Shown here: one piece after another, positions 14,847 to 27,814 of the stretch | How the letters are laid out: each line of letters begins with the position of its first letter | How positions within the stretch are numbered: the first letter of the stretch is position 1 | Assembly (NCBI GenBank): GCA_028279365.1 | Contig: JANQNX010000003.1 | Span: 124,001-188,000, forward strand | DNA: 64,000 nucleotides | Direction of reading: 5' to 3' | Origin: Gammaproteobacteria bacterium | GTDB taxonomy: Bacteria; Pseudomonadota; Gammaproteobacteria; Eutrophobiales; Eutrophobiaceae | Translations under genes and position numbers: made by a program | The notes under the pieces: generated by a model | Told to the model about the DNA's origin: nothing | Database searches by the model: none | What the model saw: the letters and a program-made list of their open reading frames with translations, nothing else

Positions 14847-15665
14847 GTGATACGACTTCCCTCACTCGATACTGATAACTTACTGTCTTTGTTGCATCTT
14901 ATGCCAGTTGGCATATTTTTGGTGAATGCTGAAGATCGCATTGTCTGGGTTAACAAAACCCTATGTGAACAAGTTGGTATTGAAGCTAGACAAATTATCG
15001 GCCACATGCGTTCAGAATTACCTGGCACGAATGTGTACCCAATTTCTGAGCGTATTGCCCGACATCACATCAAAGACGCTCAAAATGAGACCTTGTTTAA
15101 CTTTAACTATCTGGCAAAAAAATTAAATGGTCAGTTTGAGAACGTCACAGAAATAGGTTGCCTGGTTAAGTTTTCCAGCTTCACTGATAACCAAATTCAT
15201 TTTGGCTTTGAGCAGGTAGAGGAACAGACCGGTCTGTACACGCGCCATGGTATTTTGAAGAAGCTATCACTGCATGTAACGCGTAGTCGTCGTTACTTTA
15301 ATCCGCTTTCAATGATCATGCTGCGCGTGACACCAACCAGCGATATGGATAATGAAAATATTAACCATGCCATTGCAAAAATTCTTCGCGACAAATTGCG
15401 TTGGGTCGATGATGTCGGTCACTGGAATATGTCTGATTTTCTCTTGATTCTTCCAGAGACAAATGAAGAGTCGGCCAAAAAACTGGCAAGAAAGATTAAG
15501 TTTCAGTTGAGCCGATTTAAATTGCCCGATCAGAAAAAGATCCCAACGGCGATTGCAGTCACATCCTGGAAAAAAGGCGAAGATGAAAACAGTCTGATTA
15601 AACGACTTAACGAACAGCTTCCAGAAACCAATTATTCTGTCTCGTCTACCTCGAGAATTTCGTAG
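14847..15665 (+). CDS. PAS domain protein with degenerate GGDEF domain
   Basis: The 272-residue cytoplasmic protein has an N-terminal PAS sensor (about 12-125; MPVGIFLVNAEDRIVWVNK) and a C-terminal GGDEF-like fold (about 128-265). The catalytic motif is replaced by HWNMSDF where RxGGDEF is expected, so diguanylate cyclase activity is unlikely; it may be a signal-binding or interaction module. GTG start, with AGGTG seven bases before it. It follows the response regulator gene after about 200 bases. Its 3' end overlaps the convergent osmC-type gene by 34 bases. Confidence 0.75.
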   Translation: MIRLPSLDTDNLLSLLHLMPVGIFLVNAEDRIVWVNKTLCEQVGIEARQIIGHMRSELPGTNVYPISERIARHHIKDAQNETLFNFNYLAKKLNGQFENVTEIGCLVKFSSFTDNQIHFGFEQVEEQTGLYTRHGILKKLSLHVTRSRRYFNPLSMIMLRVTPTSDMDNENINHAIAKILRDKLRWVDDVGHWNMSDFLLILPETNEESAKKLARKIKFQLSRFKLPDQKKIPTAIAVTSWKKGEDENSLIKRLNEQLPETNYSVSSTSRIS

Positions 15666-19362: not shown

Positions 19363-20421
19363 TCAGGAACACGATGTCGCTTTTCCGGTCTGATTCTTGC
19401 CATTTTGCTTGGCGTGATAAAGGGATTTATCAGCCTGCTCAACTAGCAACTCGCGCGAATGGTTCTTTTTATATTCACTAACACCAATACTGATCGACAG
19501 GTCTCTGCGTGAAAACAAATTCACTTCTTTCACTTTCGCCCTTAATTTTTCTGAAATATCGTATGCCTCATCAACGCCAATCTCGGGAAAGATGACTGCG
19601 AACTCATCACCACCAATACGATAAACTGAATCGGTTGACCTGACTGAGGCACTGACAATATTCGCAATTTCTACCAACGCCTTGTCACCCACATTATGTC
19701 CATCACGATCATTAATCTGTTTAAAATCATCGATATCAAATAAGGCGAGACTGAAAGTACGTTCATAACGATTACTGCGTCTTATTTCATTATCCAGATC
19801 GCGATTAAAGGCTTTCAGGTTTTTTAATCCAGTCAAATAATCGGATGAGACTTCTCTCTCGAGTTTATTTCTGACAGAGAAATATATTAAGCCCATAATA
19901 AACACATTACCAAAAACGGTAACACCAATAATAAAGTAGTATATGTTGATATTGGACAGTTTATAGGTTGACGATACCTCGGCAATTAACACCGCAGCGT
20001 CGGCTATTTCCCATATCAGTTCACTTAATTCAGTAATATTTTTCTTAAGCTCGGCATCATCAGACTCACTAAATTTATGTACCAGTAATTTTAATAACCC
20101 CCACTTTTCATCGAGTAAGTTAATCTGAGCATATAAATCATCCGAAATGTGTTCTCGATTTTTCATATAAGTCTGACGCAAAGTCGCGAGCTCTCTGTCG
20201 ACTCTTATCTCGATTTGTTCACAGCGAATACCGCAGCCATCCAGTACAAGTTTTGTGTAGCGTTGGATTGATCCACGTACTATGCCTGAGTGGTTGATGA
20301 TGAAGGCATCATCTCTGAGACTCTGGTGAATGTGGTTAGTCAGATACGCCGTGCTGACTACGGATAGCAGCAATAATGAGGACAATATCAGCAGATAAGT
20401 TGACGTCTTGTTATTTTTCAT
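19363..20421 (-). CDS. Membrane diguanylate cyclase (GGDEF)
   Basis: Makes c-di-GMP from two GTP. The 352-residue protein has a membrane segment at about 8-28, a helical periplasmic sensor (about 30-160) with two Cys in DGCGIRCEQ, a second membrane segment (about 163-185), then a GGDEF domain. The active motif is intact (RIGGDEF), and a product-inhibition I-site RSTD lies five residues before it. The sensor resembles PilJ/NIT-type four-helix modules, but no ligand can be named. It is followed by the TerB-like gene. Confidence 0.88.
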   Translation of the reverse strand: MKNNKTSTYLLILSSLLLLSVVSTAYLTNHIHQSLRDDAFIINHSGIVRGSIQRYTKLVLDGCGIRCEQIEIRVDRELATLRQTYMKNREHISDDLYAQINLLDEKWGLLKLLVHKFSESDDAELKKNITELSELIWEIADAAVLIAEVSSTYKLSNINIYYFIIGVTVFGNVFIMGLIYFSVRNKLEREVSSDYLTGLKNLKAFNRDLDNEIRRSNRYERTFSLALFDIDDFKQINDRDGHNVGDKALVEIANIVSASVRSTDSVYRIGGDEFAVIFPEIGVDEAYDISEKLRAKVKEVNLFSRRDLSISIGVSEYKKNHSRELLVEQADKSLYHAKQNGKNQTGKATSCS

Positions 20422-20610: not shown

Positions 20611-23600
20611 TCAGGTATCGCCGGCCAGTAATGCTTCCAGAGGTAAGGGTTTGCCTATCCCGTAACCCTGCGCGTAATTGACGCCCAGTTCCACCAGCAT
20701 GTCACGTATCACATCATTTTCGACAAACTCGGCAATGGTTTTCATACCCATGACTTGGGCAACATCGTTAATTGATTTGACCATGGCATAATCAATCGAA
20801 TCATCGACAATGTCCTTGACAAACATGCCGTCTATTTTTAAGTAATTGACCGGCAGGCTCTTCAAATAACCAAACGATGATAAGCCGCTGCCAAAATCAT
20901 CGAGTGCAAATTGCACATTGCGTTCTTGTAACAGCGTAATAAATTTCTTCGCCTGATTTAAATTGGCAATCGCTGCCGTCTCGGTAATTTCAAAACAAAT
21001 ATGCTGACCATTTAAGTGATTCATTTCCAACTGACGAATAATAAAAGCCAATAATGTTTCATCGGCGATAGACTGGCCTGACAAATTAATTGAAAAATGA
21101 TCGGTATGATTAAAAAAATGCTGATGCTGTCCCAGTATTTTGAAGGCATGTTCAATCACCCATCGATCAATTTGCCCGGCCTGGTAATAGCGCTCCGCTG
21201 CTGGCAGGAAGCCACCGGGAGGCGTAATACTGCCATCTTCATTTTTTAACCGAATCAATAACTCATAACTGGTCTTGTTTTGTTCGTCTAAACTCACAAT
21301 AGAATGTGCATAGATACAAAAACGATTCTCATCCAATGCACGATGGATCCTTTCTACCCACTGCACCTCACCATGTTTCTCTACCAGTTTTTTATCCTGG
21401 ACACTGTAGATATGTATCCGGTTACGGCCCAGGTCTTTCGCCATATAACAAGCCGCATCGGCTTGTTTCATTAAATCACCCACACTACAGGTCACATTAT
21501 TAATTGGGACAACACCAATACTGACACCGACACGAAAGACATGCCCCTCCCAGCTAAACTGAAAATCCTGTATCACCTGTTTAATTGAGTGCGCAACACG
21601 CTGCGCGTTATCCAGTGTGCAATGCTCCATTAACACGGCAAATTCATCGCCACCCAAACGTGCCAATGTATCGCGCATCCTCACTTCCTGTTTTAACACC
21701 TCCGCAATCTGTTTTAACATTTCATCGCCAGCAGCGTGACCAGAAGTGTCATTAATGACTTTGAACTGGTCAAGATCAAGGAAACAGAGCACGTGCTCCT
21801 CTGTCACAATATTTTCAGAGGCCAATAACGCCTGGGCACGTTTTTCAAATTCCGTACGGTTAATCAGTCCAGTCAACGCATCATGTGATGCCTGATAGCT
21901 CAGCTTCTTATTGAGCTGATGCTCTTTGGTAATATCCTCCTGAATACTGACATAATTGATAATCTTTCCCTGTTTGTCACGAATTAACGATATGGTGACG
22001 CGATCCCATTGCGAGGAACCATCCTTGTTCTTGTGTTTTAGTTTTCCCTTCCATTCTTTATTCCGTTTTATTGATCCTCGAAGCTGTGAATAGATCTGAT
22101 CCGGTGTATCATCACTTTTCAATAGATCAATATTCTGCCCTCTAACGTCTTGTGCTGAATAGCCATAGTGTTCCTCAAATGCCGGGTTAACATATTCAAT
22201 GTTACCATCGTCATCAGTAATAATGATCGACGCGCTGCTTGACTCAACTGCCCGGGATAATTTCTGCAACTCAATGTCTTTGAGTTTTCTTTCGGTAATA
22301 TTCTCGAACGTGCCGGCAATACTGATGATTTTATTATTGAGTCTCACTGCTTCACCGACTGAGCGTACCCATATCAGATTATTTTTAGCAGTGATAACCT
22401 TCAACTCAAGGTCGAATGGTTTGCCGTTCTCACGGAGATAATGCACCGCCCGTTCCATGATCGGCCTCGACTCCTCATCATAGAAATCAAGTGCAGTCTC
22501 AACGCTGGGCATGAAATCCTTGGGTAACTCATGAATCATATAGGTCACATCTGTCCAGCTTAATTCATTAGTTAAGAGATTTAATTCCCAGCCACCCACT
22601 CTGGAGATACTCTGGGTCTTTCTTAACAAATCGCGCGTACGGTATAGATCATGCTCAAGGTTTCTTGACAGACTGACGTCCTGAATTATGCCTATGATCT
22701 TGTCGAGTTTTCGCTGCTGATCGAAAATTTTGGTCGAGAATGCCAGTAGGGTTTTTAATTTCCCTTCAGGGGTAATGATTCTGAATTCTGAGGAAAACTC
22801 TTCTGAACGCTGTATCGCATCAAAAAACTCTTTTGACATTTGTTTCGCATCGCCGGGAGGTAGACAACGCTTGAATGCTTCATTTTCATTTTTAAACATG
22901 CCCTTCTTGATTTCAAAAATATCGTAAACGGCATTATCCCAAAACAGCTGTTGTCTATGGATATCATATTCCCATAGACCCATTCGGCCAGAACGAATCG
23001 CCAACTGTAATCGCCGCTGGCTGTCAGTTAATGCGTTTTCTGCAAGCCTTTCCTGGGTAATATCATGCTGCGTACTGAAAAAATGCGTGGTGATACCGGA
23101 TTCGTCTTTGACCGGCACGATGCGCAGGTCGTTCCAGAACATATCACCATTCTTTCTGTAATTTCTCAACACAACATGACACTCACGCTGTTCTTTTAGC
23201 GCCTGGCTTATCTGTTCTATTTCTTTTTGTTCCGTGTCAGTTCCTTGAAATATACGACAATTAACACCCAGTAATTCCTCAGCTGAATAGCCGGTAATAT
23301 TCTGAATGGCGGGATTGGTGAATATAATCGGGTTATCTTTGGCGCGGGCATCAGTAATAATAGTGCCCAGATCCAATGTATCAAACGCCTTGTCACGAAT
23401 TCGCAAGGCCTTTTCCAACTCTCTGCTCTCAGATACATCCCTGCCAATCGAACAGCTAAGCTCAAGATCGTGTAGTTTTACATAACTGGCGATAGACTGA
23501 ATCTCTCGTTCCTGTCCATTTTTTCCCACATGCACGACATTGGAAGTGACCACTTTTTCTTGCCTAAGCTTTGCGAAGCGTTCCTGCCACTGCTGCGCGT

Positions 23601-24387
23601 TCAAATGCGGTTTGATACCAAATATCGTCATCGATAGCAGCTCTTCAGAACTGTAACCTAGCGATTGGCACATGGAGTCATTGACAAAAAAGAACGCACC
23701 ATCAGGCTTGACCCAATACATACAGTCCGTTGTATGTTTGGCAAGGGACTCATACAGTTTTAATTTGTCTTGCGCATCTTTCTCAGCGGTAATATCGGAG
23801 ATATGAGCGACGTAGCCACTAATCGTGTTCAACTCATTATATTTAGGGTAATACTTAACAGCATAATAGCGTTGCCCCGAAACGGTTTCATACCAACCTT
23901 CAAATGAAACGGTCTCGCCTGCTAAGGCCAGATTGGCGTGTGGCAGTGCGATTTTCTGAAAATGCTCCTGACCGAGCACTTCTTTTAGATGCTTATTAAT
24001 GACATCTTCATAGGTTAAATTAAACGCATCCAGATAGGCTTGGTTACAAGCTACGTAGGTAAGGTCTTTATCGATCAGCGCCAATAGATCACCATGACTG
24101 GTCACGATGTCTCTGAAGTAAAATAAATCCTTAGTCAGCTTTTCAAGTTTTGCTACACACCAATAGCCTATGAATGCATAGGACAAAATGACAAGGGCAA
24201 TCACAGTGCGGGCTTCGAGTTCATAAGCCAGCTGGCTCTGAATAAAACCGGAAACTGAGACTAATGTAAAAAATTCGGCATCGAACAGCGGTAGACATAA
24301 CCAAACTAATGCTGCGATTAACATCCCTGCACTCAGAAATAGTTTAGCCATAGACCATTTCAAAAATTGAACAAGAAATGATGGCAT
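20611..24387 (-). CDS. Multi-PAS/LOV GGDEF-EAL c-di-GMP signalling protein
   Basis: The 1258-residue protein has two membrane helices (about 14-37 and 61-80), then six PAS domains (about 90-200, 211-320, 330-445, 456-572, 585-700, 708-822). A GGDEF domain follows (about 828-995; LGGDEF, I-site R903-x-x-D906), then an EAL domain (about 1010-1255). The EAL catalytic set is complete: E1042-L-L, N1101, E1133, D1163/D1164, K1184, E1220, Q1240. The third PAS carries GVNCRIFQG with C377. N409, N419 and Q440 sit at exactly the spacings of flavin-binding LOV domains. It could therefore make or degrade c-di-GMP in response to blue light, among other cues. It reads alone, leftward. Confidence 0.92.
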   Translation of the reverse strand: MPSFLVQFLKWSMAKLFLSAGMLIAALVWLCLPLFDAEFFTLVSVSGFIQSQLAYELEARTVIALVILSYAFIGYWCVAKLEKLTKDLFYFRDIVTSHGDLLALIDKDLTYVACNQAYLDAFNLTYEDVINKHLKEVLGQEHFQKIALPHANLALAGETVSFEGWYETVSGQRYYAVKYYPKYNELNTISGYVAHISDITAEKDAQDKLKLYESLAKHTTDCMYWVKPDGAFFFVNDSMCQSLGYSSEELLSMTIFGIKPHLNAQQWQERFAKLRQEKVVTSNVVHVGKNGQEREIQSIASYVKLHDLELSCSIGRDVSESRELEKALRIRDKAFDTLDLGTIITDARAKDNPIIFTNPAIQNITGYSAEELLGVNCRIFQGTDTEQKEIEQISQALKEQRECHVVLRNYRKNGDMFWNDLRIVPVKDESGITTHFFSTQHDITQERLAENALTDSQRRLQLAIRSGRMGLWEYDIHRQQLFWDNAVYDIFEIKKGMFKNENEAFKRCLPPGDAKQMSKEFFDAIQRSEEFSSEFRIITPEGKLKTLLAFSTKIFDQQRKLDKIIGIIQDVSLSRNLEHDLYRTRDLLRKTQSISRVGGWELNLLTNELSWTDVTYMIHELPKDFMPSVETALDFYDEESRPIMERAVHYLRENGKPFDLELKVITAKNNLIWVRSVGEAVRLNNKIISIAGTFENITERKLKDIELQKLSRAVESSSASIIITDDDGNIEYVNPAFEEHYGYSAQDVRGQNIDLLKSDDTPDQIYSQLRGSIKRNKEWKGKLKHKNKDGSSQWDRVTISLIRDKQGKIINYVSIQEDITKEHQLNKKLSYQASHDALTGLINRTEFEKRAQALLASENIVTEEHVLCFLDLDQFKVINDTSGHAAGDEMLKQIAEVLKQEVRMRDTLARLGGDEFAVLMEHCTLDNAQRVAHSIKQVIQDFQFSWEGHVFRVGVSIGVVPINNVTCSVGDLMKQADAACYMAKDLGRNRIHIYSVQDKKLVEKHGEVQWVERIHRALDENRFCIYAHSIVSLDEQNKTSYELLIRLKNEDGSITPPGGFLPAAERYYQAGQIDRWVIEHAFKILGQHQHFFNHTDHFSINLSGQSIADETLLAFIIRQLEMNHLNGQHICFEITETAAIANLNQAKKFITLLQERNVQFALDDFGSGLSSFGYLKSLPVNYLKIDGMFVKDIVDDSIDYAMVKSINDVAQVMGMKTIAEFVENDVIRDMLVELGVNYAQGYGIGKPLPLEALLAGDT

Positions 24388-27445: not shown

Positions 27446-27814
27446 CTATTTGTTTTTGCCTTTTTTATCTTTCTTGTTTTTCTTCTTATCTTTTTTATTC
27501 TTTTTATTTTTCTTATCTTTCTTTTTGTCTTTTTTACTATCTTTCTTTGCCGCTTCCTTCTTTTTGTTTTTTTCAGCTGCTTTTTTCGGCTGTGTTTTCT
27601 TCGCTACGCCTTTTTTAGTGCTTGTATTGTTTCCCAACAAAGAGTCTGCTGCTTTCATCACCGTCTCTGCGCGACCGGGATTAAACCCCGGGGCAAGGGC
27701 CAGCTTTTCAACACCAAACTTAATCAGGCCTTCAGCCGTCGTAACACGTTTTGTTTTTAAATAATCTGTCGTTTTAGGACCGATACCGATAACTTGATTC
27801 ACAGGAATAGTCAT
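27446..27814 (-). CDS. Helix-hairpin-helix protein with long lysine-rich tail
   Basis: The 122-residue protein has an N-terminal helix-hairpin-helix pair (about 5-62; QVIGIGPKTTDYLKTKRVTT with the GIGP hairpin), a domain type that binds DNA backbone non-specifically. It is followed by about 55 residues of mostly Lys with Asn/Asp/Glu/Ala. The tail recalls histone H1-like or nucleoid proteins and should bind nucleic acid. Start codon overlaps the mscS stop (ATGA), with GGAG eight bases upstream, so the two are translationally coupled. The role is unknown. Confidence 0.7.
   Translation of the reverse strand: MTIPVNQVIGIGPKTTDYLKTKRVTTAEGLIKFGVEKLALAPGFNPGRAETVMKAADSLLGNNTSTKKGVAKKTQPKKAAEKNKKKEAAKKDSKKDKKKDKKNKKNKKDKKKNKKDKKGKNK

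Follow-up and report, generated by a model that had tools for sequence, protein, structure and literature searches.

Light-tuned c-di-GMP turnover is already known as a general principle, and a 2014 survey of 1390 bacterial LOV proteins found GGDEF or GGDEF plus EAL domains in about 18% of them (PMC4844311). SL2 of Synechococcus elongatus is a characterised light-stimulated LOV-GGDEF-EAL phosphodiesterase (PDE) (Cao et al. 2010, reviewed in PMC8846402); it has one LOV, one GGDEF and one EAL domain, and two phosphate arginines (PMC8846402). RmcA of Pseudomonas aeruginosa is a multi-PAS GGDEF-EAL protein whose LOV-like PASd, the fourth PAS and devoid of the Cys, is implicated in light control of c-di-GMP (PMC8846402). 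In MsLadC (PDB 8c05) LOV is linked to GGDEF by a direct coiled coil and there is no EAL, while P. aeruginosa RbdA (PA0861, PDB 5xgb) offers a solved PAS-GGDEF-EAL output module.

We analysed a 64,000-nucleotide stretch of a gammaproteobacterial contig (the window), in which one gene encodes an additional member of this known kind of LOV-GGDEF-EAL photoreceptor, to which RmcA is similar. The protein resembles SL2 in coupling a canonical LOV with an adduct Cys to GGDEF-EAL, but it additionally has two transmembrane helices and five more PAS domains, and only one phosphate Arg. In contrast to RmcA, its LOV is the third of six PAS domains and has the Cys; unlike MsLadC, it has an EAL domain. It also fails the motif filter of the MsLadC study, FxxxT(G/E)Y plus Gx(N/D)C(R/H)(F/I)L(Q/A), reading IxxxTGY and GVNCRIFQ. 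The RbdA-type output module is shared, together with the ELL(L/I)R motif, but RbdA keeps the Gln of YAQP where this protein reads YAHS, and the matched part of RbdA has no LOV. The locus provides a membrane c-di-GMP enzyme with a testable input for blue light, in an order otherwise without LOV among the genomes examined.

Gene and domain order

The gene is an intact open frame of 1258 codons on the minus strand. Apart from the two N-terminal membrane helices, which were predicted by hydropathy, the domain order was read from Pfam matches. The features are as follows.

20611..24387, minus strand: whole gene, 1258-aa TM-PAS-PAS-LOV-PAS-PAS-PAS-GGDEF-EAL protein (open frame, Pfam)
24277..24360, minus strand: predicted TM helix 1, residues ~10-37 (Kyte-Doolittle maximum 2.3)
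24142..24216, minus strand: predicted TM helix 2, residues ~58-82 (Kyte-Doolittle maximum 2.05)
23779..24096, minus strand: PAS1, residues 98-203 (Pfam PAS_4, 52 bits)
23413..23757, minus strand: PAS2, residues 211-325 (Pfam PAS_9, 31.5 bits)
23038..23388, minus strand: PAS3, the LOV, residues 334-450 (PDB matches, LOV profile, AlphaFold, Foldseek)
23257..23259, minus strand: C377 codon TGT, predicted flavin-adduct Cys (direct reading)
22648..23010, minus strand: PAS4, residues ~460-580 (Pfam PAS_3, 45.9 bits)
22282..22620, minus strand: PAS5, residues ~590-702 (Pfam PAS_3, 26.8 bits, barely above cut-off)
21928..22263, minus strand: PAS6, residues 709-820 (Pfam PAS_9, 70 bits)
21418..21891, minus strand: GGDEF domain, residues 833-990, motif and I-site intact (Pfam, motif positions)
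20647..21354, minus strand: EAL domain, residues 1012-1247, metal ligands intact, H1028 for the substrate Gln (Pfam, residue census)

The initial annotation had described a membrane-bound protein with c-di-GMP output. At the level of sequence both descriptions hold, the former through the two predicted helices and the latter through the GGDEF and EAL domains.

LOV identity and predicted flavin pocket of the third PAS domain

The same annotation had named the third PAS a probable LOV domain. All five residues on which it relied (C377, Q381, N409, N419, Q440) are at the places given, with exact spacings from the Cys of +4, +32, +42 and +63. The adduct-Cys motif GxNCR..Q is present as GVNCRIFQ, and the flavin-contacting Gln, Asn, Asn and Gln are all kept. 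This five-residue set does occur in LOVs of other bacteria. A chance occurrence was considered and rejected, since none of about 30 aligned PAS domains of relatives has the set, and both profile and fold point to LOV. The best 60 PDB matches listed for the domain by phmmer were all LOV proteins or LOV constructs, led by 9vf7 (E 7e-32). NCBIfam models for YtvA and LOV-histidine kinases also matched strongly, yet under their whole-protein cut-offs, because these models include further domains.

For a profile comparison we used 34 Cys-containing LOVs from class genomes and viral contigs, leaving out the LOV under study. Residues 338-448 scored 142.7 bits, far above the other PAS domains of the protein (78.6 bits for the next best, 713-824), and PAS domains in the other genomes of the family reached at most 89.6 bits. 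A domain from another family (L035) scored 142 bits as well, yet has Pro where the Cys is expected; a high score alone is thus no proof of photochemistry, and the Cys matters. The AlphaFold model, made with an alignment of 12 sequences, had a pLDDT of 95 and a LOV fold. Its best Foldseek match was again 9vf7, Meiothermus MrLOVe (rmsd 1.1 Å, TM 0.92), and the top 50 matches were all LOVs or LOV constructs. Eight of the ten LOV-receptor residues listed in PMC11151830 are kept (F452 is replaced by I and L453 by F), and that study takes at least eight of its listed conserved residues as the threshold for a LOV. Sequence, profile and predicted fold therefore support residues 334-450 as a genuine LOV domain and predicted photosensor.

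The domain is unusual around the flavin site. We defined a conserved LOV position as one with the same residue in at least 70% of the compared LOVs, which gave 39 positions, and 32 of these are matched. Five departing positions carry residues found in none of the 34 other LOVs; Avena numbers were assigned by counting from the Cys.

I361: Phe in 34/34 other LOVs (Avena F434)
I379: Phe in 33/34 other LOVs (Avena F452)
F380: Leu in 34/34 other LOVs (Avena L453)
S394 (+17): Arg in 27/34 other LOVs (Avena R467)
S438 (+61): Gly in 27/33 other LOVs (Avena G511)

The pocket may be re-packed: the Phe at the F434 position is lost, a Phe is gained beside Gln381, one phosphate Arg is left and a Ser stands at the G511 position. 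In LOV proteins two arginines contact the FMN phosphate (PMC4335406); here the first (+1, R378) is kept and the second (+17) is lost. The motif NCRIFQG had no other occurrence among 399 sampled genomes of the phylum. As a consequence of the five changes, flavin affinity or the photocycle could be altered.

Output module, proposed relay and competing explanations

The initial annotation had also taken both catalytic sets to be intact, which proved right except for one residue. In the GGDEF domain all active-site residues tested are present (DxLT D836-T839, D871, N879, D888 and the signature G912-F916), and the I-site RxxD is intact (R903, D906). The EAL domain keeps all of its metal and catalytic residues (E1042, N1101, E1133, D1163, D1164, K1184, E1220, E1223, Q1240). 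His1028 (codon 21304-21306), however, takes the place of the substrate-binding Gln, which corresponds to RocR Q161 in the assignment of PMC7911125; Gln stands there in 45 of 47 EAL relatives compared. PAS6-GGDEF-EAL aligns with RbdA over 537 residues (E 3e-137). For RbdA, GGDEF-EAL has PDE and no diguanylate cyclase (DGC) activity, and a PAS-containing construct is reported to have both (PMC7825114); light-raised PDE is thus the favoured output here, with DGC output possible.

The LOV is far from this module, with 535 residues and three PAS domains (PAS4-PAS6) between C377 and GGDEF. In gammaproteobacterial GGDEF-EAL proteins whose LOV is 50-54% identical and which likewise have extra sensor domains (L127, L128, L131), the LOV is, in contrast, the last PAS and adjoins GGDEF (~159 aa where measured). 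The same arrangement was seen for the closest gammaproteobacterial LOVs (genomes G162, G396, G193 and G303; Cys to GGDEF 159 residues), and in two others the distance is 281 residues, longer by about one PAS. Any light signal must therefore go through or along PAS4-PAS6, and strong coupling is less certain. The protein is in this respect a test case for signal relay by PAS chains.

We consider it probable that this is an inner-membrane c-di-GMP enzyme with PAS3 as its LOV photosensor, in which blue light and other signals most likely tune PDE output. PAS3 would bind FMN, and blue light would produce a C377-flavin adduct. A rearrangement near Q440 would then affect Ibeta and the flanking helices, and helices or coiled coils along PAS4, PAS5 and PAS6 would rearrange and so relay the signal to the GGDEF-EAL pair. 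If RbdA, the closest solved relative, and SL2 and RmcA are a guide, the net output would most likely be light-raised PDE activity, which would lower c-di-GMP and favour a motile or dispersed state. GGDEF would serve partly as a GTP-binding regulator. The remaining PAS domains would bring further signals, light being one of several inputs.

With the same sensor part, light might instead control the protein as a diguanylate cyclase. The intact GGDEF signature and I-site would allow this, H1028 may weaken the EAL, and LadC proteins are light-activated cyclases (PMC10396304). However, among solved proteins the output module is closest to RbdA and MorA, which are hybrids with measured PDE activity, and LOV-GGDEF constructs taken from LOV-GGDEF-EAL proteins lacked light-regulated synthesis (PMC10396304). 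We regard cyclase control as rather unlikely, though with an appreciable chance. Two further explanations concern the sensor, and we regard each of them as improbable. The LOV could be decaying, with little or no flavin binding, and now serve as a structural PAS spacer. Such decay would account for the five changes unique among the compared LOVs, including the lost phosphate Arg and the Gly to Ser438 exchange, and for the absence of NCRIFQG elsewhere in the sampled phylum genomes; in AsLOV2 the G511M variant yielded no soluble holoprotein (PMC11151830). Against decay, the five hallmark residues and most conserved positions are kept, and AsLOV2 F434M and L453M still formed the adduct, with faster recovery (PMC11151830). 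Moreover, the +61 position is Ala in several LOVs (FFASQ), and A, H, K or G replaces the +17 Arg in others with an intact Cys, so that the phosphate arginine pair is common rather than essential in LOVs.

The other explanation is that flavin-bound PAS3 mainly senses redox state or oxygen, a role proposed for the flavin PAS domains of RmcA and NifL, with the Cys adduct secondary. In RmcA, the effects of light and of phenazines both depend on the Cys-less PASd (PMC8846402), and a NifL model is among the weaker matches found with the whole protein, PAS6 being matched best. A pure redox role, however, would not need C377, Q381, N409, N419 and Q440, all of which are kept, and the Cys-less LOV-derived domains of the class (L035, L074, L087, L089) indicate that the Cys goes when it is not needed. 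We prefer to read the odd pocket residues as signs that the photocycle is tuned and not that the domain is dead, and the domain may offer a natural variant for the study of photocycle tuning. The four Cys-less gammaproteobacterial domains just named, of which L035 lies in G050:C23, have Pro or Gly in place of the Cys and are possible redox sensors in their own right.

Distribution and genomic neighbourhood

The order as examined consists of one family with 53 genomes in 18 genera. LOV was present in one of the 53, the source genome, and no LOV orthologue was found in the 52 others. Partial relatives in G006 and G030 could be aligned, but the LOV is absent from them. A listed 55% relative covering 289-1256 (L001) was rejected as a LOV protein, its nearest PAS having Pro at the Cys position. 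In the class sample, 40 of 369 genomes had a LOV-like match.

The source genome also has four short BLUF open reading frames and matches to the photolyase/cryptochrome family, which fits a light-exposed organism. Of the 53 family genomes only 7 have BLUF, and the single other species of the genus examined is not among them. A rhodopsin search gave no match, and its control search was likewise silent. Two of the BLUF genes are short and in tandem (L133:1222-1686 and 1943-2464, G000:C16), ~17 kb before the window and beside an apparent ferrochelatase gene; the two others lie on other contigs. GC and GC3 are even along the whole LOV gene, and the LOV segment has the same composition as the remainder, so that composition gives no hint of a recent transfer. 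The simplest interpretation is that light sensing was gained in this lineage specifically, and base composition gives no date for it. The full picture, namely a functional LOV whose flavin pocket is re-packed, with relay via three PAS domains, in the sole species of its order to collect blue-light sensors, is proposed only tentatively, as a possibility with rather less than even chances.

Within the window, a divergent glutathione peroxidase gene lies upstream of the LOV gene (24666). A second GGDEF protein, of membrane type and with an intact RIGGDEF, is encoded downstream in the same direction after a gap of 189 bp (19363-20421, minus strand), and the two genes may be co-transcribed. Another open reading frame (14847-15665, plus strand) encodes a PAS and a degenerate GGDEF with MSDF in place of the motif, and is probably no cyclase. 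A 122-aa protein without any Pfam match, encoded at 27446-27814 (minus strand), has a long tail rich in Lys (KKDKKNKKNKK...). The remaining genes sampled in the window resemble those of an ordinary chromosome.
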